Shown: positions 5,224-47,042 of the stretch, piece after piece | Layout: the number at the start of each line of letters is the position of its first letter | How positions within the stretch are numbered: the first letter of the stretch is position 1 | From: Flammulina velutipes | Lineage: Eukaryota; Basidiomycota; Agaricomycetes; Agaricales; Physalacriaceae | NCBI GenBank assembly: GCA_011800155.1 | Contig: CM022372.1 | Coordinates: 434,001-498,000, forward strand | Length of the DNA stretch: 64,000 nucleotides | Direction: 5' to 3' | Made by a program: the position numbers and the translations under genes | Notes under the pieces: model-generated | Databases searched by the model: none | Told to the model about the DNA's origin: nothing | What the model saw: only the letters and a program-made list of their open reading frames with translations

Positions 5224-6639
5224 CTAGAAAACTGGTTAAATGGCACTGAGTGTTGTGTCTGTGTTGCGGTATGGGAATGAACTGACCAGAACTCGCTTTA
5301 TATATATACCGAGGTTGGGTGGTTTTTGGCGCCATATGATTTCGATTTTTAAACGATGCATAGAGTTAGGCATGTTTCGCCACATCAACGGGCTTGGGGC
5401 ATGACGTGAAGCCGACACGGAGGTGGATAAAACAGCTGTAGAATTTCGACAGCAACATCAATGATAGCTGTCTGGCATGAGGCGGAAGGATGATCTTGGG
5501 ATCCGAGTCTCCTACTCTCCACGCCGAGCAGAGCCTTAGTATAGATCAGTCATAAGCCGAAACGAGTAGGATAGCTCCAGTAGATGGGGGATACAGGCGC
5601 CCATATACCTCAAAGTCGAAACAGCTAGTTTATAACAAGTGAGAGCCACGGCACCGGACCAAGGAAGGAGGCATTTGAGTGCAGCTAGACGGAATTAGGC
5701 GAATTAGGCTCGAGTACACTATCTTTTTGCCGACAAGGTATGTAGGATTAAGCAAGTACCTCGGGCGTTTCTAAACGGCATTGTCGAGGTAGTCTGCTGT
5801 GCATCTGCTTTGAGGGTGGATGGATAGTCAGCCATGACGTGTATATGTACGAAATGAGCGGACTCACGTAGACATCGCTTCCCGCTGCACCGAGAACTAG
5901 AATACCTTATGTCCATCTTGTTTGAGAAGGTATCAGGTCGAGATTGGGCGTCTGTAGATGAATGATTTTCTTCTTGCAAAGTAGCGTAGGGTAATTGATT
6001 GAAGATAATATTAGAATCACACGAAGAAGATAGCTTCGGCCGTGCGTCGTGCAGCCAGGAAGCTGGCAAGAAAAGGAGGATGGCCGTTCGGAAATAGATT
6101 GGTCGAATCCCGGCGTCTACGAGAATTCGCACAGGCCATGGGCAATCAAGGGAGAGTCAAGAGTTTGGAAGACAGCTAGATGATGCGGGATTAGGCGAAG
6201 CGAGCTTGAGGTAGGCGCAACTACTTCGCCGACGAGGCCTGGTTCTCTTTCCATAGAGACTGTATTAATGGTTGGAACGATGGATAGTGAGTAGATTTAC
6301 CTCGCGATGGGTTTCCGCGGTTTCCAGTCGCGATGTGGGTAGCACTAGAGACCAGCGTTGACGCTCATAGAGGCGCATGTTATACTTGAGGAAGGAGCAT
6401 TGGAACGAGTAAAGGCAGTATCAAATTCCTATGGAGAAGATAGCTTGTCCGTACGTCGCACCGATACCAAGAAACGCGATGATGGTCGTTTGAAAACAAC
6501 TCGCTATGCTGCGTGACAGCGTGACAAAGCACTTGCTCATCGACGAGCACGTCGCCGACGACCGTTCCCATCTGCTCATCGTCGCCGCTCACATCCATAG
6601 GCAGTCATATACAAACTCGAATTAACTCTCGCAGCTCAC
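5224..6639. other. Decayed relatives of the B-type small gene
   Basis: No intact gene. Two stretches, about 5960-6100 and 6400-6500, resemble each other (shared AGAAGATAGCTT and a CGTCG-rich block followed by AAG.AAA.G.GATGG.CG). On the minus strand each encodes a short hydrophobic piece. In the first a frame gives NQLPYATLQEE, recalling QLPFITFEF of B1. I read these as old, disrupted family copies. The evidence is weak because frames break repeatedly. Confidence 0.3.
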
Positions 6640-7075
6640 CACGTTCGACATCAAGAGTATGAATAAACCAGGCCATTCCTCCGTCCAGCACGACGACGAG
6701 TCGACTTAATGCCACCCACAGGCCAAGAATGTCGTCCTCAACGTCAGCGAAATAGAGGTCAAGGTCCAGAAGGCCACCAACGAGGATTCCTGGTACGCTT
6801 TTTGCACCGGAACACGTCGCAGCATTGTTGACAGCTCCATAAAAGCGCCAGCTCTTCGCTGATGTAGGACATCATGGCAACCGATACGTGCACTACTACT
6901 GCCATGAACTGCGGTTGTTGACGCTATAATAGGACATCCAGCTAGTCTGTTCTTTCTCGCGCGCAAACACATTCTTTACTGACAGTGAGGTAGCCCCGTC
7001 TTCAAAAAAATTATGCGGAACATCTACGGGCGCTTCATGGAAAAAGAGGACAAACAGTGGCGCCAGATATACAAG
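6640..7075 (+). pseudogene. ENT3: Epsin (Ent3-like ENTH domain) relic, 5' part
   Basis: Three blocks of an ENTH domain can be read in order: FDIKSM near 6640, then AKNVVLNVSEIEVKV.KATNEDSW from about 6723, then ASSSLM followed by an in-frame TAG at 6865-6867 where relatives have Gln, and finally IMRNIYGRFMEKEDKQWRQIYK ending at 7075. These match the helices of the Ent3/epsinR ENTH domain, which binds phosphoinositide at the trans-Golgi/endosome and recruits clathrin adaptors. The in-frame stop and altered exon junctions mark it as a pseudogene. Its 3' half continues at 22962, on the far side of the transposon. Confidence 0.85.
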
Positions 7076-7107
7076 GCAAGCTGTTCTTTCCCTTTCCGTT
7101 GCTGTAT

Positions 7108-7116
7108 CTCACACGT
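7108..7116. repeat. Left target site duplication, CTCACACGT
   Basis: The 9-mer CTCACACGT abuts the left end of the KDZ element and is repeated exactly at 22947-22955 at the right end. It lies in the epsin intron that begins with a GC donor at 7076. Confidence 0.8.
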
Positions 7117-7578
7117 AAACGCTGACAGGTGGAGAATCGATTCGTAGTGGTCGGGACCACAAGCGATCCGAGACGATCCGATCCTCGAATCCTGTAGAAT
7201 ATTTCACTTGTCTTAAATAAATTCTCCAAATCGACTGGAATTTGAGTTGGCTCGAGGCGAATCGATCCAAATAAGTAGGACTCCAATCAGAGAGCAGTCC
7301 GTTTGTGAATATAGGGATCGAGACAGATCGATCCTACTCTTGTATCCTCGGAGAAGGGATCACTCAAGCTGTGAGACGGATCGATGTATGGGCAGAATCA
7401 TGTTATATTTCGATAGTAATCAAACACATTAAGATATACAGATCGATTTGACTCTTGTACGCACCATGTTTCGATCCTTGCGCCACACCTCGATATTGCT
7501 CGATCCTCGTTCGAATCGAATCGTATCACGTACTCAAAATGTTGTCTGGCCTACTCGATCCCGCTCGAATGTATTCAC
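7117..7578 (+). repeat. Left inverted terminal repeat
   Basis: Aligns block by block with the reverse complement of 22536-22946. Shared blocks include CTGACA.GT near the tip, GTGGTCG.GACCACAAG.GATCCGA, CGATCCGATCC, TCTCCAAATC, CTCGAG.CGAATCGATCCA, GAGACAGATCGA, GATTTGACTC, TGCGCCAC, GAATCGAATCGT and CGATCCCGCTCGA. The two ends are clearly homologous but well diverged. GATC and CGAATCGA-type motifs are strongly over-represented. Confidence 0.85.
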
Positions 7579-7816
7579 CTTCGAAAGCATACGTCCTTTC
7601 TATGTCTTGTATTCGAACTGATTAACTCAAGCCTCCTCCCGTGTTTCCCACCTTCCGGTCCGTAGATCGCACGCAGTGCGCACCTGCCTATCTCGTCTTT
7701 GATTTTTGCCCAACAGACATTCAACGCCTGGGTGCGTCGGTCGGCGTCCTATGGCTGCGCTGATCCAACCACAGTTTTCAACACCTAGACGAACATTGAA
7801 TAGGCGAGCAGGCTAG

Positions 7817-8728
7817 GGCATCGCGCTGCAACGACTCTTACCTTTATTGCCCGCGGCGCCAACGATAGGTGCGTCGCGTCGTTATTCTTTTGTTTCGCCG
7901 CTTCGACTGATATATCTAACGCATCAGCTATCAATCCCCAGCGTCAACCCCTACCAAATACAACATCGCGCCCGCCAATACGCGAGGTACGTGGCGTAGG
8001 ACTCACACTTTGTAGCATAACACCATTAGCTTCTCATAGACAGTCTTCACCGAACACTTCCAACGTTTGTTTCTCCAAGATAGTGTGCGCGCGGCATCCC
8101 CTCCACTCAAAAATACTTGTACACTCCCTGGTGCGTCCCGATTCCCTAATCGACGTCTGTGTGAGTAACCTTGCGCGTCCCGTAGCCGGAGACAGACACA
8201 TACCGTTCAACGCCATCGTCGCCAACAATCTCAAGTGAGCGGTATTCCCCATGCTCACGCACTCTTCTTTGAACAAACATCGAATAGCAACAAATATACT
8301 CATGTCCCAGCACCACTTCCCCCAACTCTACTATCTCTCCACAATCTCATCTAGATTGCGTGGATTGACGCCGTCCTCGATCAATTTGGCCACTTTGATA
8401 TTGCGTCAGCTCAGCTACGATAGTCATGCGTACGGTGGGCGCGCTGCATATCTAGTGCTATTGTGAGTCACGACGTTCATTTCATCTGGCATCTCACCCA
8501 AGTCGGCATAGGAATGATCTACATGCTTCCACCCCGGGTGGCATGGACCATATCACGGTGAGGGTCTATCGTTCGGATGGATGTACCATTGGAACCATGC
8601 ATTGGTATGAGATGTTACCTTGCGAAATCTTCCAACATTCTCCTCGAACAGTCCGTCGCCATCGCAGGGAGAGTCGAACCATCCAGCGCTTCTTTGATCC
8701 TGCAGATCCTTTGTATGTTCATACCTAA
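7817..8728 (+). CDS. Unrecognised protein carried by the KDZ element (5' end unresolved)
   Basis: Exons 7817-7868, 7928-7986, 8040-8130, 8186-8234, 8355-8462 and 8512-8728 splice in one continuous frame. Introns are 53-59 nt except one of 120 nt and one of 49 nt, all with GT...AG ends. The protein is at least 190 aa, Pro/Arg-rich at the start, with a middle block NNLKLRGLTPSSINLATLIL and a C-terminal half with VRVYRSDGCTIGTMHWYE and RFFDPADPLYVHT. No domain recognised. The first exon has no convincing ATG: one candidate at about 7750 runs into a stop, so one or more upstream exons are likely. It is convergent with the next gene. Confidence 0.5.
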
Positions 8729-9031
8729 AATTCCAGTAGTCTTGTAGAATACCGACACGATAAAATCAACACACCTCTCAACCTGCCTCAACAGTTGTAA
8801 GAGCGATGCAAAGATACTGAGACAGGCAAAAGATCATATAACATACATCATAAATCATAGGGAATCAACTCCGACCTATATACGACACAAGAGATACAAC
8901 TATCTACAGGAACATAATGCCTTAACATTTCCCAGACGATTATTCGCCTTGTACACCGACCATGGCAGCCCTGCGCGCACTCTTGCGACTGGAATATGAT
9001 TAGCTGGCGGATATCTAGATTCATTAATTAC

Positions 9032-11218
9032 TCACATTATGGGCCCCTCTTGGTCGTCTGCCACACGTTTCTTCTTCCCTTTGGGTTTCAATGAATCTGA
9101 CGTTCCCGCCTGCTCCTCCCCATCCTCCGCACGCTTTCTCTTCCCTGTGGATTTTGAGGTCGACGCCGCTGCTTTCTTAGGCGCCGCTTTCTTTCCCTTT
9201 TTTGGAACCTTCTTCTTGGACTTGACCTCCTGTGGCGGCTCATGTTGCTCCACCCCCTCGTTCTCTTTCTCCACCCTCATAGCAGATGCGCTTGATAACT
9301 CCGGATCCTCCACATGAACCTCGCTTTCATCGTCGGGCTGCAAAGGCTTGGCGGATTTGCCTTGCTCCTTTGATTGCTCCTTGTCTTCATCTACGCTGTC
9401 GTTGTCGTCTGCGGTATTCATACTCTGAAGTCGAGTAGCTGCCTCCAGTAGATCAGGATGTGCAGGTACATCTTCAACTTCCATGTCGTCCTCGTCGTCG
9501 AGCTCCAAAGGCTGCGTGCCAATTCCCTTATCCGTTGGCCCTCCCGCCTCGTCATTGTCGCTGTCCGACGTCACTGCTTTTAAGGCAGCACTGAAGTCCT
9601 CTTCCTCTGCTGCGACATCCTTTCCGACAACAGGATTCTTTGCGGCCTTAAATCGGAAAGGTTTGCCCGAAACGGTATACTCTTCAAGTAGGCATGCCAA
9701 ATCGAGAACTTCGTTGATACGCCCTTTGACGACGAGGAGTTCAGGCCGCGTAATGGGAGTCGAGTCCGCTAACTCCGGCCATGTCTCGACGTTGAAGTAC
9801 ACGCTGGGATCTGTGGAGATCTTGTCGTAGGGTACTGGTAATTGGCGCCCGCCCATAGCAGTTTCTATAAGGTAATTAGTACATCGCAGCACCGCCGAAC
9901 CAAAAAATCACGTACTGTAGTTTAAACGGAAGTAATCATCTAACAGAATTCTCAAGGCTGCCACAGTCGCGTTCTCAATGTCCACTTTAGGGAAGATAGG
10001 AAAACCGTCGTCGGAATAGTCGAACTTTGTATGTATTGGCGCCTGTCGCGACGCTACACGGTTTTAGCATCCTGTTAAAGAATAGTATTCAATCACTCAC
10101 GAAAATGGGTTTGCTGTAACAACTCTAGCTTCTCAGCAAAATCGTCCGGCAAAAGCTCCATCAAGTTCGGTCCTTCTGTTTGAATGCTGGCAAAACTCGT
10201 CAGTTCCTAACCATTAGGTAGAATATATGACATATGACATACACATTAACTGACTCGTCGTTTGGGTTCTCCGTTGGCTTCCAAACGGCTATGAGTCCGA
10301 AGACAGCTTCATCGTTCAAAATTGTCCTCACAGACGCAAGGAGAGCCCACAGTCGATGGATTAATTGTGACTTGATCCTAGCGCAGAACTACATCAGTTT
10401 ATTTTGGAGGGTCTAAACCGATCACTTACTCGTCGATGTCCTGCTGCTGCTTTGGCTGCTTAGCTCGCGTCTCATATATACCCTTTTCATCCTCCGTTAA
10501 AGAATTCCAGAGCTCGGCGAGAGCTTTCTGACGAGCACCTCCCTGATTATTGTCCTTGATCGTAGGCAGGAGTTCAGCTGCGCGCGCTTCGATATCCGGC
10601 TTGTGTTCGCGCTTATAAATATCCCTACCCGTCGGAACGAACTGAATGTTGAGAAGAGCCGCCAGTTGAGCACGAAGATACTCGTCCAAAGTAAGGTCCT
10701 TTTCCCCGGCGTCTTCCTCAACATCTAGCTTGCCGGTGAGATTTTTCGATCCCTCTTCACCCTCTCTTTTGACGCCCTGCTTCTTTTTCTTGTTCTGCTT
10801 TCGCTCATCCGTCACTCGCAACCAGTTGTTAAGCCATTTCCCATATTGCTGTGTGGATCGTCAGTAATGGCATACCCCGTCACCTTGGCGGACCACTTAC
10901 CATCCTCCTGGCATCCGTCATCTTTTCCCTTTCGTCGGAGTCCAAGTCATCCCAGTCGTCGACATTCGTAGGGATTAGAACAGGATGCGTAAGCATTTGC
11001 GAGATCAAGCGCGGCCACCAGTCCTCTCGGGTTTTTTGTTCGCCTATCATCTGGACAGCGCGCAGAGTCTGTCGCTTGCAGAAATGTAGGAGAGTTTCTC
11101 CTTCGGACGACAACGGGTCCAGCCTATGCGGCATCGTGCGTTTGCGCTCGCACTGCGGTGTCGCTTCAAACGACCAAGTCGTTAGATCGGGTACGGAGGG
11201 CAGTTCGTCGAGAGCCAT
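9032..11218 (-). CDS. Unrecognised 648-aa protein carried by the KDZ element
   Basis: Six exons on the minus strand with consistent phases: 11218-10901, 10848-10430, 10377-10245, 10206-10101, 10053-9916 and 9864-9032. The N-terminal part is mixed and carries a WWPRLI motif. Residues from about 106 begin QYGKWLNNWLRV and run into a Lys-rich stretch. The middle contains helical, Leu-rich segments (LMELLPDDFAEKLELLQQ). The last 240 residues are low-complexity: acidic blocks, then a Lys/Ala-rich region (KKKVPKKGKKAAPKKAA) ending in KRKRAED and KGKKKRVADD. This suggests a nuclear, chromatin- or nucleic-acid-associated protein (inference). I do not recognise the family. No frame break seen, so it is probably expressed. 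Confidence 0.75.
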
Positions 11219-11399
11219 TGCGATATGTTATGGGAGAAAGGATGGGTGAGGTTGGCTCGTCTTTTGTCCTTTAAACCAGAACAATCGTTGTTCTCCTGTC
11301 ATTAATACGACATCAGCCATTGTACACTTCGAACAATGTATACTCACACGTCCGGGCCGACATAATCGTTCGTTTTCCGTCCTACTCGTAAATAATCTA

Positions 11400-11932
11400 C
11401 TAGAACCTACTGTCTACTTGAATGTCATGTATTAAATATTCCCACATCGTACACGTCTCCACGCCAACAGCACGTAGTGCCAGAAGGAGACGTCGATTTA
11501 CTACAATCTCCTCCCCAACATCCCATTCTACCCATGATCTCGATTCAACGTCGTACCGTTGCAGTGATGAGGTCTCTAGCAATCGGATGCGCACGAAGCT
11601 ATTGACATTTCCCTCTGCTGGCCATGCTACGAAATCAACGATTGAAGAGTCCTATGATACTGATAAGCAGGAGACTTTGAGACCTTGCCACAAGAGCAGC
11701 TTACCTCACGCCATATAGCAGTCCACACCGACAAATGTCCACTTCGGGTGTTATCATCATCAGGCGAATCAACATTACTACTGTCACTGCTCCCATCCAG
11801 CCCCTCCTCGGAAAAGATCGAGTCCTCGTCAGACTCATTATCCACGACGGTATCCTCGTCGGAATCTACCAATGTTGCATCATCATCGTCATCGGCGGCT
11901 TCGCGAGTATGTAGTGTATGGATATGTGCCAT
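11400..11932 (-). CDS. Unrecognised acidic 159-aa protein carried by the KDZ element
   Basis: Two exons on the minus strand, 11932-11705 and 11651-11400, with a 53-nt phase-0 intron (GTAAGC...CATAG). Residues 14-60 are almost entirely Asp/Glu/Ser (DDDDDATLVDSDEDTVV and similar). The remainder is a compact folded-looking segment with SSIVDFVAWPAEGNVNSFVR and WVEWDVGEEIVVNRRLLLALRAVG. The acidic N-terminus could be a histone- or basic-protein-binding surface (inference). No known domain recognised. It lies head-to-tail with the neighbouring minus-strand element genes, about 180 bp from each. Confidence 0.65.
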
Positions 11933-12114
11933 GATATGTAGTGAATGAGTGTATGTGTGTATGTGTGTACTTAAATATAAATGGAAGAGTATGTACAACG
12001 AACGGATCAGGGATCCGCGTGGACAACGATCGTCTCGGATCACACGTCGATCCCATAATCAACAACGAAAACAAAGGTATTAATAATAAGTAGTAGGAGT
12101 CCATTGTGTGGAAG

Positions 12115-12673
12115 TCAAAGGGGGGCCAGATAGTCAGCCACCTCGCTCATCCACGCGTCGGGAAGCGCCTCGTTCGTAGCGTGGAAGAAGATTGGTGTTG
12201 TGACATCTGCTGGTGTGGCAAAGAACGAATACCATCCGATGGTAGTCCATGCCTCTGCATCTACGTATGTCCGACCTGCGGTGGCTAGCATCCTGAAGTG
12301 CGGACGTTGCGCGACACCTGCTGTGGCCAAGGTGAAGGCGTGATCGGCTAATCTAATTCTTGGCCCTACGTCCTCCAAAAACAAAGTCTTCCTCCGCCCA
12401 TTCTAGGAAATCATGAGCATCGCGCACTGTATTATAGCAAGGCTCACTCACGGCAAGGTAGAAGTTCAAGGTTATTTCACGAAGAACCTCGCGTTGCTTC
12501 CTAACGCGAGCTCGCCGTTTCTTCACAATGTGTTCTGTGATTTTGGTCTGGAAGATCTCCCGTGCCTTCACTGGTGCGCGAGCTATGCCGGACGAACGCT
12601 TCATCTGTTCAGCGACAGCGTTCGTGAGCGATAATGATGATGGTAGGAACTAACTTACCACCTGCATCGACAT
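12115..12673 (-). CDS. Unrecognised basic 151-aa protein carried by the KDZ element
   Basis: Three exons on the minus strand: 12673-12659 (5 codons), 12604-12452 and 12402-12115; introns are 54 and 49 nt, phase 0. The N-terminal third is basic and helical (ITEHIVKKRRARVRKQREVL). The rest contains AGVAQRPHFRMLATAGRTYV and an aromatic segment TTIGWYSFFATPADVTTPIF, ending ADYLAPL. A basic first half is compatible with DNA or RNA binding, but no known fold is recognised. It sits immediately downstream of the KDZ transposase gene on the same strand. Confidence 0.6.
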
Positions 12674-12816
12674 TGTTCTTTTGAGGCCCTCACGCAGGTC
12701 ACGCGAGGGCTTGTTTGAACCAATGTTCATTTAGTAAATATATACACAAGTTGGACATATCAACGAAATAACTGAGTATACATGTTGCATATATCATACA
12801 AAACATAAACATATCC

Positions 12817-15800
12817 CTATTTCCGCTTTCTCCCCTTGGGCTTGTAGGTAACCTTCTCTTTCTCTTTCTCCTTCTCCTTCTTCCTGGCCTCCTTCTCCTC
12901 TTTTTCCCTCACCGCCCTCTTTTGTCGCGCCTCAACATTCCTTTCTTTAATTCCCATCAACTTCTTCACTCGCTCTAGCATGGCCTTGGGAGCAGTGGGA
13001 TAGACCCTTCCGATTTCATCCACACTCATCTGCAAAGAGATTTCTTTTTGGCGAACACCCATCATGTGTTTCCACAAGGGCTTTTCCCCCAAATGAAGAA
13101 TGTGGCCATACCCACATTGGTAAATCTGCTCCTCCAGCCTTGTTGTCAAGACTTCGTACATCGAGGCATGCTCTCGAGCATACGCCGCGTGACCAGCCAT
13201 CGATCTCTTCGCAAAGGTATTTCCGCGCTCCAGCCAATCCTTCAGCGTTCGTGAGAAGCTCTTCTTTGTCAACCAGAGACTGGCTTGCTTATATTCAACA
13301 GCATCGCGCCACCGTGCTTTTTCAGCTTTCAAGCGGAAGTATTTGACACGTTCCCCTGCAATGTATTAGTCTCAAATCGGTATCACAAATGCATGGCTCG
13401 CGCACCGTCCTCTCGCCAGTCTTTGATGTCTTGAGTGTTCTTGTTGGAGCGTTCCATGAGTACGTAGATCCAACCGTCACCAGTATTGAACTCTGGGTCA
13501 TCGCGAACCGGTACAGAAGTTTCTTCGCCCTGACCGTCTGTGCGTGGTTTCGTCTTCATGCGTTTCTTGGGTCGTGTAGAGTCGTCTAAAGCAGAATGAG
13601 TACACCGCATCCTCGACATCAGCAGGACGTACCATCTTCGTCAGCATTGTCGTCAACACGCGTCGCCTGGCGTTTCTTTGACCGTGTGGATGGGCCTGGC
13701 GGAATCAGCATGTGAGGGACTCAATAACTTGAACACGTACCAGCTTGCGCATTTGACTGGCTTGTCGAACGGCTTGGATTTTCCACTACCTCGGCTGAAT
13801 CAAGAGTGAGCTTCTTCCCCACTTCCGGACGAGGAAAAATAATACCTGGGGCAACAGCGAGTTCTTCATCTTCTTCGATAACTCCTAGGTTTCCTTTCTG
13901 CTTCACTGTTCCTGCCTGCAATCTTGGTCCACGGTCAAATGACAAAGCCCGTCGCGTACGACCATTCAATCCCTTTCCCATCTCATGCGTGCTGTTGCTC
14001 CGGTTGTAGAAATCGATAGTCTTTTCGGCACGCCTAGATTCATGGGGGGCACGATTGTGGTGGGATGACTTTTTCAAGAAGGTATCCTCCTTCGTAATGC
14101 GCGCCAATCCTTTCAAATCCGAAGAATCCAGCATACCAGCGTCCTTGACAGCATCGAAGTGAGCGTTCCAGTCGGCGATGGCCTTGTTCCTCTCCCATTC
14201 ATAACGTCGTGCCTTTGTTCCTCTCTGCGTCGTGATGTCGGACTTGACCAACCTCGCCAGAGCTTCTGCTACTTTCTCTCCTTGGATGCGTGTGGTGTCT
14301 GCCAAAGACCTGAGTTGATCCGCCATATCTATTATGACTTCAAGGGCTGCAAATGCTGACGCTACCCGCAGGCGCATCTCCATATCACAAAGAGATGGAA
14401 TATCACTCCGTTCCATGGGTGTGAGGGCCAAAGGCAGACCGAGCAGACGATCTTCAATCCGGTCAGATCCTCCTGAAATATCTCGTTCTCCCGACAAGAG
14501 ATTCGGGCGCTCACGCAACCATTCTTCGGTGCTCGTCGTTAGGTTGACGCGGGCTCTGGCCACAGTCTCCTCGTCTACTTGGGAGATGTATTTTTTGACC
14601 TTGACGGACAGCTGTCGACAGTCCCGCCTCGAAAAACATTAGATCTCTCAATAACAATCACCAAATGTGAAACTCACTGTTGTTTCTCCAGCTGTAATCC
14701 TTTGACCAGAAATTTGCAGGCAGCATCCGACTTGACTCCCTGCCCGGGTCCAATGGCTAGCACAATCGGGTTTTCGTTGTACATGTCGATGACGGCCTCC
14801 ATCGATGGTACTGCATGATTTTATCAATTCTCCACACCATTGAGGGAAATTGTGAGTGCTTACTTTTGGTCTTTCGATGTTTGTAGGGGCTGATGACCTC
14901 CCCGTTAACTTTGCCTTTCATCCTGCCCCAGCCCCAATGCCCAAATTCCAGATTACCGAACTCTTTTTCCCATGCTTTTATGAGTTCAGGTTCGGTCGTC
15001 GACACGCATTCCTCGAAACGCGCCGTATACTCCTCTAATTTCTCGGTGCAGTCGGTAAGTTCTTTGCAAAGTATTTGAGCTAAGGATCATTAGACCGGTC
15101 CAACAAAGGTACTAGAAAACTCACGTATAGCTATCGTTTTCCGCCAATTCCAATCCATGGCCACATGGAAATAGATTTCGTGACCATGATTGAGGTTCAT
15201 CTGGGCGATGATTGCTCCAAAGCGGTTGGTGTAGGACCATGTCTGTTCAGAGGTTTCCCCGTACAGGTGGCCAGCATGCGGCACGTAGAACGGAGAAAAG
15301 ATGTACAGGCAGTTGTCAACATGGTTGTAGACGTGCGCCGCTCCTATCAGTTTGACGAAGTCGTTCATTAGATCCTCGGCTTCGCGTAATTCTGGGTTCA
15401 GATAGTAGCGATCTGCTACGTGTTTGCCCCATGAGCACATAGCATCGTAAGCCACGAACAGCGGGACCCATGCACCCTTATATTTTACTCGGAGAGCACC
15501 GCTGCGATACAAGCCGAGGAAATGTGCCATGTCGATCGATTTGTGACTGCCAAAAGAATGAGCATCTGAAAGAAACGCCTATAGGGGAAAGTAGAAAACG
15601 TACTCCTCGCCTTTCGGAATGTCGCACGTGCCAGAGATGAAAACATGAGAACATTGACTTTGCGCGATACCATTGTACTGGCAATATCCTAACCTAGGAT
15701 TGGTTTCAGGATCAGCCGCCTTGATTTGCGCGCAAGGACGTTGCTGCAGGGATGGGGTAAATATGTGTCACATTTGGGACTGAGCGACTTACATGCACAT

Positions 15801-17327
15801 CCTCCCCTTCAGCTTTTTTAGCCTTAGGCAGTTCCCTGGCGCGGTAGGCCTCCATAATAGCAGGGTCCGGATACAAACCGCGTGACCCGATAAGATCGAT
15901 GTCCTCGTTGTCTGAGTTAGCAGCTCCACAACGAATTTTGAAGTTCCCATCGAGAGTCTTTTGGAGACAGATAAGATGTCTATAGGCTGTTAGAACTGCA
16001 GGGCGAAATCACTGTTCGACAACACATACTTGAGTTCGGCTGGAATGTCCTGGAGGTCGTCTTGCTCGACGTTATACCCCATCTCTGGGCAAGATGGGCA
16101 AAGGACCATCAGGTGATTCTCTTGACGCGAGGGTACGACTTCGTGAATATCATGGACATTGCCAGCACGACGTTCTGCTTTGATTAAGCACCAGATACGA
16201 AATACTCGACGAAGTTGTTTATCCAGCTCCTGCGGAGTTGTTTAGAATGGTGTCGCTGAGTAAAACGGAGACTCACAGGTACGTCCCAAGGGGAATAATT
16301 GTTGGTCATTCTTTGCCAAGTCGAGCATATGGAGTTCACGTTAACGGCGGCCTCCACATGCAACAGCTGGAATTGTCGAAGGAGATCAAAGGAAAATGCG
16401 ACGCCGGGCTGCTTTGCACTTCCAGGGAACAACCGTGCCTCTACGAGTTGCTTTGCGCGATTGATTGGACCACAGTTGCAGAAGTACACCTCCAGGTCGT
16501 GTACACCGTGAATGTCCATGACTATGAGGGGGGAGCGAGTTTTCTGGGGATGAGGACACGGACGTCCTTTATGACCAAACTGTGGCCAGCAGTGAACTTT
16601 TTGATTTTGAGCCTGAAGGAGCTCGTGGAACTGGACCAGATTCAGAGATTCGAAAAACCCTTTCTCCTTGTTCCAGACTTGAGGAGTATGCGTGAAAGCG
16701 TTACGATGGTTCTCCGCCCAGCACGCAGCACATGTCGGTAAGCACTGATAGCACTGTTGGCAGCGTACTATCCTGAGGCCACGAGATGTCGATCCTCGGC
16801 AGCTGCAGGCCTTCACCACTGCTTCGTCAGCCTCCTGAGCCATCATCCAGGCCTGGAGATCGGGTAGAAGTTGGCGAAAGTCCTCCATAGCAGCTCGCGT
16901 CTAGTAAAAAACATTAGTTAGGCAAGCTGACACGTAGACAGAGCAAACATCTCACCTGGGACAATTGGGACTGGTCCTCGTTGCCATCCATATCCGGCTC
17001 GTTCGGTAGCGTAGGCCCTTCAATGACGTCGGGGACAAACACGTCTTCCATGACATCTTCTGCCACCGGTTGAGAGTGTTCCGCAACTGTTTGTTGTGCA
17101 GGAGGGTCTCGCCTCTTTCCCAGGGGATACGGATTCCAAGAAGGGGGAATGGTGGGTGCAGCTCGACTAGCGGTTTGCTTCTGGGGTGACGTCGTTAAGA
17201 TATGTTTCGCCGTCAACTGGGGCAGTGTGGGCGGCCCTCCCTTTGGTTTCGTCGGGGACAGTCTATATTGGGAAGATAGCTGGGCTAGGGCAGCGATCTC
17301 CCTCTTTTTTTGGGGGGAGAGTGTCAT
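12817..17327 (-). CDS. KDZ transposase with CxC2-like cysteine cluster
   Basis: Twelve exons on the minus strand (17327-16956, 16900-16277, 16229-16030, 15979-15793, 15743-15604, 15546-15125, 15079-14864, 14810-14678, 14627-13741, 13695-13633, 13585-13406, 13355-12817), all phases consistent, 1320 aa. After a Pro-rich N-terminus, residues about 150-310 hold a cysteine cluster (CSCRG, CQQCYQCLPTCAACW, CNCGPINRA) like the KDZ-associated CxC2 domain. The RNase H-like core follows with DGNFKIR (first acidic residue), YDAMCSWGK (second), AHVYNHVDNC and GETSEQTWS (Glu), then DWNWRKT. The long helical C-terminal region ends in Lys-rich repeats that could serve as a nuclear signal. KDZ enzymes cut and join transposon ends. 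No stop or frameshift was found. Confidence 0.92.
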
Positions 17328-17558
17328 GACGGTAACTAATGGAGAGGTGAGTTCAGGGGACCCTCGTTTTATCCAATTGGACCTACAATGGAGCGCTCCT
17401 GATCATGTGACCGCATTGTGTGCGTTGTTCTGAGAATGACAATGCTCTACTTGATAGGCAACTGTTTGGGGTCAAATAAATATGTACGCATGTAGGTAGA
17501 TAGATAGGTAGGTAAAACATAGATAGTGCAAATATAAGATATGGTACCATTATTATTT

Positions 17559-18760
17559 CTACACTGTGTCCGAAGTTCCAGTTACTGTATCGGGCTCTTT
17601 GAGCACAACAACAGTGTGCTCCGTAGGTAAACGAATGGGTTCGTCCCAACCCCATGCTCGCCAGGTATCGAAGGCAGGGAAGTATCGCTCGAAAATAGTG
17701 GTCGTCTCGACACCATGCTCACCCAGAGCGACTTTGAAACGGCTCATCTTGGGCTCGTTTGCACCTTGCACCTCCACAGTGATGTTTGTTGGTAAGTCCT
17801 TCTCCTGTATGATGGTCAGATTGAATGAATGGCGGGGAGAAAGATCCCTTGCCTTGATATATACAGTAAATGTCAATAACTTGGTTTCGTCTTCACTGTC
17901 CGAGATGTCGATAACGTCGAGGCGCCGTTTTTTGGCCACGGGGCGACGGGGCTGACGAAGGATCTGTTTCATGGCAACCTCGTCGTCATCGTCGTCGTCC
18001 GAGATCACAATAACATCGGGCACCTTTGGGGCAATAACATCGGGCACCTTTGGGGGTAGCCCGCGATCCTTTCCTGTGCGGACGCGGAGGGGAGTGGGTG
18101 TTTGAGGAGAGGGATTTCGAGGACGTTTGGCCCGACGAAAGGGGGTAGAAGGAGAGCCAGCTCGGTCAAGACGATGAGTGGTGGGAGTACGGAATCCAGA
18201 AGGGCCTGCGCGGGGTGTCACAGGTGTTTGAGGGGAGGGGCTTCGAGGACGTTTGGGCTGACGAAGGGGGGTAGAACGCTGGCGAGCTTGGTCAACATGA
18301 CGAGCAGAGTCGTCATCGCGTTTAACTGCAACATGGGCTCTGGGGGTCCTCGTCTTAGATCGAACATGTTGGTTGTAGGGTGTTGGAGGAGGCCGGAATT
18401 GTAGTTTGGGGCCGATTTCCTCGGTAAGCAAGTCGAGGGGAAGACATTTACCGATGAGGATAGGACGTTGATGGTGATTGCACTACCTTAAAATAAATAT
18501 CTGCGACATGAAAGAAGAGGGAGACGTACCCATGTCATCCAGGATCCCAGCAGACCAAATCGGGGGTGGGTTGGATCAAGGACGGGGCCCATCTTACTGT
18601 GGAAGCCCTTTCCTCTGTAAATGAAGGGTGTCTCAATGTTGTCGCAACATCGATTCGCCCACGCAAGGTCATCCCTATGTTCATCTTCCGCGTCGAGGCC
18701 GTTTTCTCTGCGAAGACGGTATAAATCTACGAAGAGCTCTTCTTCGAATGCGGCGCTCAT
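17559..18760 (-). CDS. Nuclear-looking protein with SUMO-interaction-like motifs, KDZ element
   Basis: Two exons on the minus strand, 18760-18530 and 18482-17559, with a 47-nt phase-0 intron, 384 aa. The first 77 residues form a compact region (FVDLYRLRRENGLDAEDEHR). The middle is Pro/Arg/Ser-rich with a partial internal duplication (PKRPRSPSPQTP and AKRPRNPSPQTP) and a basic RRPVAKKRR patch. Two hydrophobic-acidic motifs, PDVIVISDDDDDDE and LDVIDISDSEDE, have the form of SUMO-interacting motifs. The last 110 residues look like a beta-rich domain. A nuclear, SUMO-reading role is inferred from motifs only. It is divergent from the KOW-protein gene across a 0.8-kb spacer with a palindrome. Confidence 0.7.
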
Positions 18761-19534
18761 AGCGGTTTTGGCAGGAACTATTGCATATATGATGTTTTAT
18801 ATGAAACGTCTAGCCGCGGGAGCCGCTCGAGTACAATCGACTACACCTACGAAATTGAGAATAGGATCGCAACAATGAAAAGACACTCACCGGGGGCCAG
18901 CGAAACAACGAGCTGACGAGACCGTGATTTCCATGACAATGAGTGGACGTCTCGAGTGGGGCGCCGTTCGACTACAATCGATTCCCACTGCGACAGATTG
19001 AGTATTTTTTGCGAACAATGAGCATCTAGCTAGAACGTACATGGAGACTCGCCCAATCATGTGGACGACGATATGTTTATCCCTAATCGTTTTTCTATTC
19101 AACGAGCTTCAAGACTGGCGTAGGTGAATTTACAGACTTTTCTAATGAGCCATTGGCTCTACGCTATTCATTGATACATCCTACAGACGATAACTAAAGT
19201 ACGGGCATGGAGAGTCGTTGCCAATGATGGTCAGAAGCAAAGCGGAAAAGATTATGTAAGCCCAACGGTGGGTAGGTTGTAGTCCTCCATCAAACGCATC
19301 GGGTACACCCGATGCGTTTGATGGCCAGGCAGTAATACACCAGCCAGACAATTACATAAGCTTTCCATTCTTTGGTTCGCGCCACGATCATATACTCTGC
19401 CTAAGTCGCCTTTCAAAGTGAGTTTGGCTCGGTGTAGTAGACAGGTAGTAGATAGATAGATAATATAATCAAAAAAATGTGCATGCTTCCTGTGGTGTTC
19501 GGGCTGTTTACACGTTTACAGGATAGGACCAGTC
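18761..19534. promoter_or_regulatory. Divergent promoter region of the KDZ element with a perfect palindrome
   Basis: Spacer between the outward-facing genes at 18760 (-) and 19535 (+). At 19287-19324 it has a perfect inverted repeat: arm CCATCAAACGCATCGGGT, 2-nt spacer, then the exact complement. About 18826-18881 and 18966-19020 also resemble each other (TACAATCGA.T, GATTGAGTAT-like, GCGAACAATGA), suggesting a diverged local duplication. The palindrome could be an operator, a replication or protein-binding site, or an RNA hairpin in a 5' leader (inference). Confidence 0.5.
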
Positions 19535-22467
19535 ATGTCAGCCCGCAGAGCTCGCAATCCATTCATCGACGACGAGGCTGAAGAACATGATAGTGATTCC
19601 GAAGGTGAGCTTCTCCTCACTGTGCTTGTATGACTCTGAGATTCCCGTCCTAGTTGAAGGTTTCTTGGATGACTCCCGCGAAGCAGAGTCTTCGAGTCAA
19701 GGTCTTGGTAGGACAGAACAGAAAGAACAAAGACTGCCACAGCAGCCTCGATTCATGGCCAGACTACAGGAGATAATCGACGCGTACTCGCAGTCCTCTA
19801 TAGAGGCAAGGGATGACGAGGCAGCGGACATTAATGTGGAAAACGACGAAAATATCGACAATGCGAGTGGCTCGGAGGATGAGGAGGATGAGGACGAATC
19901 CTCTGAAGGAATGTCGCATTTGCATGACATGGGTGCGAAAATCGCCGATAACCCTGCTATTGGTATGCTACGGTATACCGTCCGTTCAGTACACTGTTTT
20001 CCCCATAGTACATAATTTCATATGATGCTCATCGTCCGGTAGGGAAGTCGACAGCACGTCCTACGCCGACTCAAACGCCTATCCCGTATCCACGGCTTAT
20101 ATTGCGACTTCTGGATTGCCCGTGGAGTAGGGCCCTCTCGCTATCTGTACATTGTTTTCTTGCCAGAGGACAACACGGACTGGAACGCCAAACTAACGCA
20201 GCTTGCAAGAGTTTGGGATATCTCACCATCGGGAGATTCTACTCCTCTGTCTCTGAATATCGAGGAGGCCGAAGATCAATCCTTTGTATCAAAAGCAAGC
20301 GCATTTATCACGATTCACGAGTATTTGAAGAAGCTGCCCAGCTTGTTGGATATACGGTCAGCCCATCCCATCCTCGATAGGGAAGATCGCTTTACCACCG
20401 TCCTGACACGAACGTCTCGTCGTCTTCCGATGAATTGGGCTGGAAAGTGGGTGGTGATTCGCGATGGCGAATATCAAGGCGCCGTAGGGTTTGTGCGCCG
20501 CCCGGGTCCTGATGTATGGGTTCTTGGAGGGCGTGACCGTTGGGTGGACGTCCTCGTAATTCCACGTGTTTTCAACGACCCTACGCTACGTGAATATGCA
20601 GAGGGTACGAATGGGAATGGGAAACGACGTGCTGTAGGGTCTGGGGAAGTGTCTAAACGTTTGCGGTCGGAGGGAAATAGCTCGGGCAGACCGCTGGAAC
20701 CGCGTCTTTTAGTGGATCGCGAGGGTCTCACCATTACAAACGAAGGAAGGGATCGGCAAGTGTACGAACAATTTGGGAACAGGGCTTTCGCTACGGACCT
20801 CGAACTCATTCGCGTTCGGGCCAAACACGTCACTCTTGCGTTGATGACTCCTTGGCCTGTGCGACTGCAGTACCTAGCGTCGGAAAATCAGGAAATCGAC
20901 ACGACGACCTTACCACCCCCAACAATTGTCAAGCTGGAACCAGAAGAACGCATCATCCACGTACCCACACGTTGGATTGGGTATATGTTAGAATGGCGGG
21001 GCGAAGATATTGCAGCGTACAATGTCGTGGACGGAACCAGGGAAGAACGACTGGTTCCAGCGTCGGAAACGCACAAGTATTTTGATGTAGGAGAGTACGT
21101 TGAGGTTGTCATACACTCAGAATCATCTACGGACATTGCTGGTTCAGGATGGGTTATACAGAACACGCGAGGATCACTACTGGAGATCTTTGATCATAGA
21201 CTGACACCAGAAGGACACAGAGGCGAGGCAAGTTTTCTATCAATGTAGGTATATAAACTGGTGCTAAAACTCATTCAGCTCTATGACATTGAACCAAACT
21301 TCTGTCGCGCCACTACTGCCTTCTGGAAAGGAGCGAATGCATTACTTCGTCATGTTTCTGAAGCACCTCCATTGGTCGACACTCTTACCGTACGTCCACA
21401 GGTCAATCTCCCCCCGCACATGATGCTTCCTGACTACCACACCGGACCAATCCCTTGGAAAGGCCTAAATGTCATCGTCACCGGGAAGCATCAATTTAAA
21501 GGCCAGCGAGCGAACGTAGTAGACGTCAACATCACCCCAGGAGAAACGAAATCGGGCTTACGCATTTCAATTGTCATGTACAACTCGGTAGCACAGACTT
21601 CATCACGAAAATCTGGATTATGCGGATATCCTTGATGAAAGGTGCGTACTTCTTTCTACATACTCTACTACAACGCTGACATCGACATGAAGGACGGGAT
21701 GGCCTTTGCGTGTCGCAAATCCTCCAAGTCCTCGTCATGTCCACTTCGGATTCTGTGGAGACAAGAAGGATTGGCACGAAGAGATGGTTCACTACTTTGG
21801 TCGAACCTATAACTTGCGAGACATCAGTCGCACGTCACCGCCGCCTCCACAATTCGACACCGCTGGGGGAGGTGCATCCACCTCCAGTACTACACAGGCC
21901 ATCACACCAGAAGAGTGCTGGATCGGACGTGATTTTTTGAGTGGTGTCGTGGTTCAGGTCTTCCGCAAGACTTCCAGAGCAGTAAGGCCCAAAAGCATAC
22001 CAGTCATGTACCGTCAATCTTTCCAGGCCGGCATCCCGGGACAAGTCCACGAAGTGGTTCCCAACAAAGGAAACATGAGAAAGGGTGATCCTCTGCCCGC
22101 CGATGACCTAGTAGTTCAACATCCAGGCCAACGACCAAGTTCAGGAAAGTGTTGGATCGTGCTGGAGGGTCCTTGGCAAGGGACCTACGTCCGTGCTGTC
22201 AGGTACAGGGCTTGGAATGAGGAGTTTGAAGGGCAAAGCAATGAGAAAGTTCCTCACTGGGAGGTGTTGGAGGTGACACGGCAGGGTGGAAAAACAGACA
22301 CTGCTACGGGGAGGAGACTGTTGATCCGCAATGACCATCTCGCAATCATCGGAGATAGTCAACATATTCTCAATATCAACAAACCGTTTATCTCATACCA
22401 GTTGGGCTCCCGGGACGATGATGATCATCAGAACCCTTGGGTAGTGCATCCGGAGGACTCATTATAA
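19535..22467 (+). CDS. Spt5-like KOW protein carried by the KDZ element, apparent frameshift
   Basis: The model starts 19535-19604 (MSARRARNPFIDDEAEEHD...), then 19654 onward, a long exon from about 20043 to 21227, then 21279 to about 21620, and 21693-22467. The N-terminus is strongly acidic, as in Spt5. A YCDFWIARGVGPSRYLYIVF segment near 20,100 resembles an NGN-type start. KOW-like segments follow: GKWVVIRDGEYQGAVGFVR, WKGLNVIVTGKHQFKGQRANVV and CWIVLEGPWQGTYVRAVRYR. Spt5 is a transcription elongation factor; a transposon-borne version may act on element transcription (inference). The intron at 21228 appears to use a GC donor. Near 21,590 the frame must shift by one base to reach LDYADILDE, so this copy may be broken unless splicing is different. 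Confidence 0.7.
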
Positions 22468-22535
22468 CTGCATTACCATACAATACAGCCACGCAGGACT
22501 TCAATTTCACTTTCATTGTATGGATCGATTGGGAT

Positions 22536-22946
22536 GTGAATAAACTCGAGCGGGATCGATGTGCAAAGGACCAACTGAGTGCGCGAAACGATTCGATTCA
22601 ACTCAAGGATCGCGCAACTTCGAAACGTGGCGCAGGGATCGAAACAGTGATCACTCGAGTCAAATCGAAATCTATATATGAATATACTCGAATTGTATCG
22701 AGTTCAAAACATGACTAGATTCGAGGCGTTTCGATCTGTCTCAATAACTAGCTGATGTTTCCCGAAATTACCAAGGGCCTCACACTTTCACCTGGATCGA
22801 TTCGTCTCGAGACGACTCAAAAGCTAACTGATTTGGAGATTCTTTTTGAAAAAATACATTTTTTTCTAATATTTACGGATCGGATCGGATCGGATCACTT
22901 GTGGTCTCGACCACCCAGGATCGATAGTTGACTTGTCAGGAGTCAG
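22536..22946 (-). repeat. Right inverted terminal repeat
   Basis: Reverse complement aligns with 7117-7578; it has the same palindromic GTGGTC..GACCAC core and a tandem GATCG run (about 22878-22896). It begins 68 bp after the stop of the KOW-protein gene. Confidence 0.85.
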
Positions 22947-22955
22947 CTCACACGT
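22947..22955. repeat. Right target site duplication, CTCACACGT
   Basis: Identical to 7108-7116. It is followed directly by CTATAG, the acceptor of the interrupted epsin intron, and then by ENTH coding sequence. Confidence 0.8.
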
Positions 22956-22961
22956 CTATAG

Positions 22962-23251
22962 GCCCTACATCTCTCGAAGTATCTCATCAACCATGGCGCG
23001 GAACGCGTTGTTGACGATGCGCACGCTCACGTTTCAACTATTAAAATCCTCCGCAACCTCCCCTGCATAGACGACAAGGGGAAGAAGTTTGGCATCAATG
23101 GTACATATACTTCCTTTCCTTTTCCCATCATGCACCTCTCATATGTCGCAGTGCGCAAGGAGATTGTCGAGCTGCTTAGCGACGTCGAGAAAATACGCGC
23201 CGAGCGGAGGAAGGCAAAGACCAACAAGCACAAGTACATTGGGACGTTGGG
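22962..23251 (+). pseudogene. ENT3: Epsin (Ent3-like ENTH domain) relic, 3' part
   Basis: From 22962 the frame encodes ALHLSKYLINHGAERVVDD, AHAHVSTIKILRN and IDDKGKKFGIN; after an intron (GTACAT...TCGCAG) come VRKEIVELLSDVEKIRAERR and KAKTNKHKYIGT. This is the second half of the ENTH domain, directly continuing the helix that ends at 7075. Relative to typical Ent3 sequence a few residues are missing after GINVR. No continuation of the clathrin/adaptor-binding tail is seen downstream, so the relic is truncated as well as interrupted. Confidence 0.85.
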
Positions 23252-24284
23252 TGAGAAGTATTACCTTACATCGGTACGTCTTGGTACCCCCTAACGATAT
23301 ACATTTCACCAATGTTCTCGGTGATGGTAGGCGCGGTAACTTGCTAAGCTGTGTTTGGACCTACAACCTCCTGATTTAAGGGAGTTTGAGCAGCGGTGGA
23401 AACGCCACAGTCCCATACCGGTGTGTCGGGGCTATGACGAAGAGGTTTGTTCCTCAGGTCTCCTGGATTGATTAGTGCATTTCGTACTCTAGCGTCGAGC
23501 GATCGATCTTCATAGGTCCGCGCCGTGTAATTGTTGTTGATGATGATTCTAAGCGTGGATTTAGCTTCAACATGCCCACTGTCAAGCATGAACGCTTCGT
23601 AACTCTAGAGCCCGTCTCGTGCTAACGACGGGGAAGTCGGATCTGGAAGCAATCAGCTGGCTTCCAACGTATTGCTATAGATATTGCTCTCGAGGGAAAA
23701 GACGTCCCAAGAGAGCAGTCATGAAAACACTGCCCACTATGCTTGCACCTTGGTACAATGCTGTTCTTTACATCACTAAGCCTCGATCGTGTTCAATAAC
23801 AGGAGGAGTGTCGTATGTGTGGTAAGGTCCTCTTCTCAACACTCTAATATTCTCACGTCGCTTGATAGAACAAAACAATATGATGCCTACCAGAGGTTCC
23901 AATATCGCTGAGTACATCAGCTAGTATCTCGTGACAGATATTCCGACAACCGTTCAAGTGTGAGTCTCGGGCGCCGCTCCATAGCTTGCAGGAACCCATT
24001 CAAGTGCCCCCTCGCTGCAAGTCGGGCATCGCCAATTCGCGATTCGGGAACTGTCAATCATTCTCTCAGTTCTCATATCCATCAATCGATACTATGTTCT
24101 CAATACTCCTGTTGAGTCGACTTGGGGAATCCACATGTGTTGAGCTCATTCTTTTGATCTTGTGGCGAACAACTCACGAAAGCAACGTAACGATGGCTGC
24201 CATTCGATATTATTCTGTGTACCTCTTTTCTGTCATTTAAAAGCTGCTCTATGTGTGTTCTTTCCTCAGCTTCTTCTCGCTGCG
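23252..24284. other. No gene recognised
   Basis: About 1 kb after the epsin relic. Only short frames with no family resemblance; probably decayed sequence plus the promoter of the glyoxal oxidase gene. Confidence 0.4.
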
Positions 24285-46438: not shown

Positions 46439-46534
46439 TACGCCGAGGGGCAATCGAACCCCCACCGCTTGCTCAGGACCTATGAGATGCGTAAAGATGG
46501 AAGGCAAGCATGATAACCATTTTACCATCGGCGT
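46439..46534 (-). tRNA. tRNA-Gly(UCC) with intron
   Basis: Reading the minus strand, a perfect 7-bp acceptor stem ACGCCGA/TCGGCGT with discriminator A, a D arm around GGTAAAATGG and ATCA, anticodon stem CTTGC/GCAAG with loop start CTTCCA (anticodon UCC), an intron of about 23 nt after position 37, and a T arm GGGGGTTCGATTGCCCC. One T-stem pair is mismatched compared with an ideal GGGGG/CCCCC. This is the most complete member of the cluster. Confidence 0.8.
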
Positions 46535-46961: not shown

Positions 46962-47042
46962 TACACAGAGGGGGAATCGAACCCCCACCGCTTGCTTATA
47001 ATGTAATCACGCTGTGGAAGGCAAGCATTTCACCATCGGCGT
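46962..47042 (-). tRNA. tRNA-Gly(UCC)-like gene lacking the D arm, second example
   Basis: Same shortened D region (GATGGTGAAATGCTTGCC) as 46609-46682, anticodon loop CTTCCA followed by an intron of about 25 nt, intact T arm GGGGGTTCGATTCCCCC. The acceptor stem pairs imperfectly (ACGCCGA with TCTGTGT), so it is likely weakened or dead. Confidence 0.4.

Follow-up and report, generated by a model that had tools for sequence, protein, structure and literature searches.

A probable complete, gene-carrying KDZ transposon within an intron of a decayed epsin gene copy of Flammulina velutipes

The window, that is, the whole stretch of 64,000 nucleotides analysed here, contains a copy of a host epsin (ENTH) gene that is split within an intron by an interval of 15,830 bp (7117-22946, hereafter element A), with perfect 9-bp repeats on either side. 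The following features were assigned to this locus.

6720..7107, + strand: 5′ portion of the epsin (ENTH) host copy as far as the GC-AG intron split by the element, with a TAG at 6865-6867
7108..7116, no strand: left target-site duplication CTCACACGT, occurring singly in an uninterrupted epsin paralog
7117..7604, + strand: left terminal inverted repeat, whose outermost motif, (GT)AAACGCTGAC, is common to copies A and B
8320..8725, + strand: g1, a small gene with matches in B (48% at the amino acid level) and C12 (46%)
9032..11221, - strand: gene for an HMG-box-like, Lys-rich protein, in pieces 11221-10934, 10860-10429 and 9907-9035
11399..11932, - strand: g4, a small protein with an acidic N part and matches in B and C12
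12115..12730, - strand: T1 partner gene, modelled as 3 exons coding for 170 aa, the last exon 88% identical to B
12817..17327, - strand: KDZ transposase of 1,320 aa, modelled in 12 exons with no internal stop, a CxC2 zinc cluster being followed by the KDZ core
17559..18781, - strand: g5, matched only in parts in B, with no match found in C3 or C12
19535..22467, + strand: Spt5-like gene, modelled with five exons; in copy A its reading frame shifts near 21603
22514..22946, - strand: right terminal inverted repeat, whose outer motif, CTCCTGACAAG on the reverse strand, is common to copies A and B
22947..22955, no strand: right target-site duplication CTCACACGT, an exact repeat of the left 9-mer
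22956..23260, + strand: rest of the interrupted intron and next ENTH exons of the host copy, from the paralog alignment and the ENTH profile

An earlier sequence-only reading had described perfect 9-bp repeats at both ends of the element and inverted repeats of about 411-462 bp just inside them. The 9-mers were indeed present at 7108-7116 and 22947-22955. Alignment of the two ends (7122-7604 against 22939-22514) gave a score of 283 with 325 of 494 columns identical (65.8%), from which the proposed length of the inverted repeats was right and their identity was moderate; among 200 shuffles used as the control, the top score was 68. Chance as the source of the 9-mers and arms was ruled out by these shuffles, by a second copy (copy B, described below) and by the uninterrupted paralog.

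This paralog is located on the same contig (C5, about 105.0-106.05 kb), 335 kb from element A, and carries one copy of CTCACACGT, in a GC-AG intron at the matching place. When the flanks 6401-7116 and 22956-24200 were joined and aligned with it, 838 of 1034 columns were identical (81%), and all of the 55 gap columns fell away from the junction. The peptide put together from the host flank exons matched the ENTH domain (PF01417, E 2.8e-22). It had been predicted that removal of the element plus one 9-mer would rejoin the epsin intron and the ENTH halves, and the paralog is joined exactly in this manner, gapless at the junction, with no sign of the differently joined halves that would have spoken against the prediction. 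The interrupted copy itself looks like a pseudogene, because it has TAG at 6865-6867 in place of the CAG of the paralog (reading frame inferred), has lost the apparent donor site just past this TAG and contains small indels; insertion into a working epsin gene is not favoured on the same grounds.

The claim of a KDZ transposase inside the element was confirmed by Pfam: the first 648 aa of the spliced model contained the KDZ catalytic core (PF18758, E 1.2e-28, profile positions 5-217 of 217) and an N-terminal CxC cysteine cluster (CxC2 E 6.8e-23, CxC1 E 5.1e-7). Both features of the KDZ superfamily, i.e. the catalytic core and the N-terminal CxC cluster, are thus present in the transposase of element A, and terminal inverted repeats, as in Zisupton and KDZ1, are present in copies A, B, C3 and C12. 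The features given for two Kyakuja families in the available part of Kojima 2025 (7-bp duplication, CA..TG termini and no inverted repeats; PMC12730594) do not describe the present element, whose termini are GTAAA.. and CTCCTGAC.. and which does have inverted repeats. Among the other genes, the HMG-like one consists of three pieces taken by inference as one gene; it matched HMG_box_2 at E 1.8e-3, which is under the curated cut-off, and its pieces were all found in the same order in C12 and two of the three in C3.

It is therefore highly probable that 7117-22946 is one complete large DNA transposon of the KDZ superfamily, inserted in an intron of an epsin gene duplicate that is now decayed; the sequence-only reading thus stood in that the KDZ element is bounded, has long inverted repeats and contains several genes, its boundaries being shown by the restored intron. 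The transposase would bind the inverted ends, excise the element and insert it at staggered cuts in a different target, which would leave a short target duplication. This is the mechanism expected of DDE transposons from knowledge of the family, and the ends, the duplication and the empty site were observed directly.

A search of the genome for other copies with the same ends, as the earlier reading had proposed, recovered copy B on the same contig as A (C5:2031084-2050095, 19.0 kb). It has its own perfect 9-bp repeat CCTCTTCCT, terminal motifs like those of A, colinear genes with 73-74% DNA identity in two long matches, and inverted ends identical in 63% of 571 columns. Transposase copies with different ends would have told against the proposed boundaries, and copy B has the ends of A. 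Two more distant relatives were also delimited, namely C12 (C12:1967307-1987459, 8-bp repeat GCCGGATG, 80-bp inverted repeat at 95%) and C3 (C3:3641382-3660332, 7-bp repeat CCGAGGT, inverted repeat of about 520 bp at 81%). In both of them, the matches to the transposase, Spt5-like, T1 and HMG-like genes all lie within the ends, in a gene order different from that of A. On C19 the same four genes are scattered across about 59 kb; this seems to be a broken-up relative, whose unity is an inference because of this scatter. Element A is a member of a small lineage of this genome (A, B, C3, C12 and C19) with a recurring gene set and element sizes of 15.8-20.2 kb. The dN/dS values between A and B were 0.13 (transposase), 0.19 (Spt5-like gene) and 0.05 (last exon of T1); they are rough because dS is near or at saturation (0.95-1.34 for the genes with better conservation, reaching 3.0 for small ones).

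The Spt5-like gene was compared with the PDB using a profile of five exon-3 sequences (A1). All seven matches obtained at E up to 1 were to Spt5, four of them below 1e-3 (best whole-chain E 1.6e-4, best single stretch E 0.013), which weakly supports homology of this cargo gene to Spt5. A KOW domain was a weak match in the single-protein Pfam search (PF00467, E 0.74; its 10.2 bits lie below the cut-off of 22.3). The NGN domain (PF03439) was found nowhere in the element, for which reason the gene is named only Spt5-like, and the whole-genome profile search gave one match, on C1 and outside the elements, by which the host SPT5 was identified as a separate gene. Recent capture of the host SPT5 is not favoured, as the NGN profile matches C1 alone. 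When 8000 candidates were scored with the Spt5-like model, from a collection that may hold few fungi, no homologous protein reached an E of 0.001 or lower. Nine more Spt5-like loci lie outside the KDZ lineage of A. A duplicated 6.3-kb unit with a Spt5-like gene is present at C5:2738908-2745251 and C9:659766-666128 (99-100%) and on C3 (88-93%); it has no long inverted ends and 0 of 3 KDZ-end motifs. In copy A, the Spt5-like gene has a 2-bp deletion causing a frameshift relative to B and D, so this copy is possibly partly decayed, unless the deletion is an assembly error.

T1 was found at eight loci of the genome, seven of them within 13 kb of a KDZ match, and its protein had no match in Pfam or the PDB. 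Three of these seven loci adjoin KDZ genes that are only 29-33% identical to the transposase of A. Since T1 also accompanies such far more diverged transposases, its most likely role is that of a second protein of transposition. For the Spt5-like and HMG-like proteins, the most likely prediction is an action on chromatin or transcription that would sustain expression of the element against silencing by the host.

Arrival of the interval by repair or by a Starship-type recombinase, with KDZ a mere passenger, appears very improbable. Giant elements of other kinds are similar in length and gene load, and element A is akin to them in both; but A and B have common ends, perfect repeats flank A, B and also C12, and copy B together with the empty site largely refutes a non-KDZ arrival. 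Moreover, KDZ was the sole transposition enzyme named by the Pfam scan of ten open frames of element A. The captain of Starships is a DUF3435 tyrosine recombinase, and no match to it was obtained in the ten frames scanned, a subset of the exons. It is unlikely that the Spt5-like, T1 and HMG-like genes travel by chance and form no functional set, though several observations would fit this view: Spt5-like genes also occur at other loci and in the 6.3-kb unit without KDZ ends, the only further matches found were in B and C12 for g1 and g4 and in B for g5, and the KDZ loci with T1 on C8 and C9 had no Spt5-like match nearby among the matches listed. Against this, A, B, C3, C12 and, in scattered form, C19 all have the transposase together with the Spt5-like, T1 and HMG-like genes, despite two gene orders, and pN/pS was 0.10-0.46 in all 11 pieces compared (g1 left out).

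The length of the target duplication is an even call. Copies A and B have exact 9-bp duplications, C12 has one of 8 bp and C3 one of 7 bp, so the 9 bp may be 8 plus a chance base. A true length of 8 bp agrees with C12 and with the duplications given for Zisupton and KDZ1 in the available parts of two reports (PMC12730594, PMC12810828), and simple arithmetic puts the chance of one extra matching base at either side at about 44% for an 8-bp duplication. A duplication of 8 bp is also characteristic of Dileera. On the other hand, A and B each have nine exact bases, and if the terminus is placed at GTAAA, as in B, C3 and C12, the duplication of copy A is only 7 bp.

The earlier reading had regarded a bounded, large and cargo-bearing KDZ element as new, which did not hold, as publications already describe large KDZ elements that have inverted repeats and target duplications, as well as giant ones with accessory genes. 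According to the available part of its report, KDZ1 of Cryptococcus neoformans, which was caught inserting, is about 11 kb long with 241-bp inverted repeats and 8-bp duplications (PMC12810828). It resembles the present elements in its KDZ transposase with a CxC domain, inverted repeats and short target duplication; it differs in its size (15.8-20.2 kb here), in having CxC1 where CxC2 is the best match in element A, and in that the available part of its report makes no mention of a Spt5-like or T1 gene. The giant KDZ elements of Ectocarpus and Chlamydomonas, reaching 30.3 and 31.7 kb, are likewise large KDZ DNA transposons but algal, and the Ectocarpus families often carry extra transcribed genes, as far as the available text describes (PMC12477816). 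Also comparable are the TET+ Kyakuja and Zisupton elements of Agaricomycotina, fungal KDZ elements with a captured gene that supposedly counters silencing (PMC12730594, available part); their cargo is a TET/JBP dioxygenase, for which no Pfam match at E up to 0.1 was found in the ten open frames scanned of element A. A Spt5-like gene and the small T1 as recurrent companions of KDZ were not found among the papers listed for KDZ, Spt5 and giant cargo transposons.

With these results, a fungal KDZ lineage now has bounded members and an internal empty-site control, T1 is a candidate second transposition protein, and a putative relative of Spt5 is borne on a transposon. By analogy with the TET/JBP genes carried by other KDZ elements of fungi, to which the Spt5-like, HMG-like and T1 genes may be a parallel, we tentatively raise the possibility, itself rather doubtful, that this KDZ lineage carries, as a conserved anti-silencing module, its own transcription-elongation factor (Spt5-like, with no NGN domain recognised), T1 as an obligate second protein of transposition, and the HMG-like protein. 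If it is true that the Spt5-like gene aids escape from silencing, this would be a route distinct from TET/JBP demethylation and one that is directly testable.

Element A, the KDZ transposon (positions 7117-22946) within an intron of a host epsin (ENTH) copy, was compared with the genome (38.1 Mb in 23 contigs; the window is C5:434001-498000). It measures 15,830 bp between two identical 9-mers.

Flanking repeats of element A
7108-7116: left repeat, 9-mer CTCACACGT
22947-22955: right repeat, 9-mer CTCACACGT, identical to the left

Inverted repeats of about 430-480 bp were found at its ends, with 325 of 494 aligned columns identical and an alignment score of 283, against a maximum of 68 in 200 shuffles. 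The left end, used as a whole-genome query, matched A's own two ends and nothing else among the matches found. Such a search for further copies sharing A's ends had been proposed from the sequence alone, and it was the right end that recovered, besides A's ends, both ends of a second element, B; these searches pass over common words, so match counts are lower bounds.

It had also been predicted that the epsin halves would rejoin with one 9-mer, and this was indeed seen, at a paralog rather than an allele. The paralog lies at about 105.0-106.05 kb on C5 and aligned with the joined flanks of A plus one 9-mer over 1,034 columns (81%), gap-free near the junction; it carries a single CTCACACGT at the corresponding point, within a GC-AG intron. 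The interrupted copy reads TAG at 6865-6867 (frame inferred) where the paralog has CAG, its apparent donor site just past this TAG is gone, and small indels are also present; by these features the host copy looks decayed.

A search with the KDZ core returned 42 matches across the genome, five of which (A, B and copies on C3, C12 and C19) showed at least 52% identity. Besides A, three could be bounded, and the apparent target duplications were 9 bp in A and B, 8 bp in the C12 element and 7 bp in the C3 element.

Further bounded members of A's lineage
C5:2031084-2050095: B, 19,012 bp, own flanking 9-mer CCTCTTCCT
C12:1967307-1987459: C12 element, exact 8-bp repeat, inverted ends of 80 bp (95%)
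C3:3641382-3660332: C3 element, 7-bp repeat, inverted ends of about 520 bp (81%)

A and B have terminal motifs in common and colinear gene order, with 73-74% identity across two long DNA matches. Much of B's added length is made up by a palindromic 2.6-kb insertion (C5:2034476-2037115), whose inverted arms are about 1.15 kb long and 98.4% identical; more arm-like copies were noted in both flanks. Divergence between A and B reached a dS of about 1 or more, from which we infer an ancient split. The insertion of A itself looks younger than this split, because A's duplication is still perfect and its transposase frame still open; the matches listed in the assembly included no closer source copy.

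The genes of A are g1, a Lys-rich HMG-like gene, g4, T1, the transposase, g5 and an Spt5-like gene. A stop-free transposase of 1,320 aa was predicted from a 12-exon model that follows the splice consensus and the reading frames that B conserves. Both C12 and C3 contain matches to the transposase and to the Spt5-like, T1 and HMG-like genes, but there T1 and the HMG-like gene form a block on the far side of the Spt5-like gene, so that gene order is unlike that of A and B. The small genes g1 and g4 were matched again in C12 and not found in C3, and g5 was found in neither. The C19 locus has an HMG-like piece, T1 and the Spt5-like gene at 49-56 kb, ordered and oriented as in C3, and transposase pieces at 98.7-107.9 kb that enclose a long terminal repeat; the set probably represents a single element split by nested insertions. 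No inverted ends were found around it within the 40 kb examined. The repeat inside this transposase gene is one copy of a sequence of about 1.74 kb (L053, an extracted C5 stretch, 800-2543), read as a long terminal repeat and present at 97-100% in at least 37 other places (39 of 164 candidates scored).

A query made of T1 and a portion of the HMG-like gene gave T1 matches at eight loci, seven having a KDZ match within 13 kb (A, B, C3, C12, two on C8 and one on C9); from the eighth, on C19, it is about 17 and 27 kb to the closest KDZ matches. The C8 and C9 KDZ genes show 29-33% core identity to A, and the corresponding T1 genes 46-51%. Matches to the HMG-like part were found at six loci (A, B, C3, C12, C19 and C9, the one on C9 with a KDZ match about 10 kb away). 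Among the 11 pieces for which A and B were compared, conservation was highest in the last T1 exon (88% aa, dN/dS 0.05; exon 2, 0.17), and T1 matched no known family in Pfam or PDB. Because of its occurrence near KDZ matches and its well-conserved last exon, we think that T1 is probably a second transposition protein.

For the Spt5-like gene, a profile built from five exon sequences retrieved seven sequences from PDB at E up to 1; every one is an Spt5, and four fall below 1e-3. Since the best stretch alone gave E 0.013, the Pfam KOW model reached only E 0.74 and the sole NGN gene found in the whole-genome search lies on C1, the predicted protein is termed Spt5-like, short of an Spt5 assignment. 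The family was found at 14 loci among the matches listed, five in A's KDZ lineage and nine elsewhere, one of the nine having a weak KDZ match about 10 kb away; none of the matches listed lay near the C8 and C9 KDZ loci. A dN/dS of 0.19 (dS 1.1) between A and B suggests selection on this gene over much of the time since their split. A 2-bp deletion near 21603 shifts the frame in A relative to B and D, a further Spt5-like copy.

Outside the lineage, a 6.3-kb unit without KDZ ends, containing an Spt5-like gene and another gene (C5:2738908-2745251), has duplicates on C9 (99-100%) and C3 (88-93%), and at its right end it is similar to a short repeat present elsewhere. Two further Spt5-like copies away from the lineage, with near-equal scores (C5:206846-207667 and C3:3112528-3113349), belong to another subfamily.

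Elsewhere in the window, open frames at 52693-56415 (-) resemble, by eye, a NACHT-type NTPase and, after it, WD40 repeats; in the WD40-like part a 126-bp unit is repeated 12.3 times in tandem (52952-54507, 88% matches). Fungal NLR-like genes show such tandem repeat parts. Rfam placed two tRNA genes at 46439-46534 and 46962-47042 (-) (42.0 and 30.8 bits), neither reported by ARAGORN in its bacterial setting.

To the sequence-only reading, a bounded KDZ element of this size with long inverted repeats and several cargo genes had looked new. This was not borne out, as large and giant KDZ elements are already described in published work (PMC12730594, PMC12810828, PMC12477816). No report of Spt5-like cargo in KDZ elements was found in the literature searched, which covers few subscription journals. 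We have filed A within the KDZ superfamily, as a new variant.
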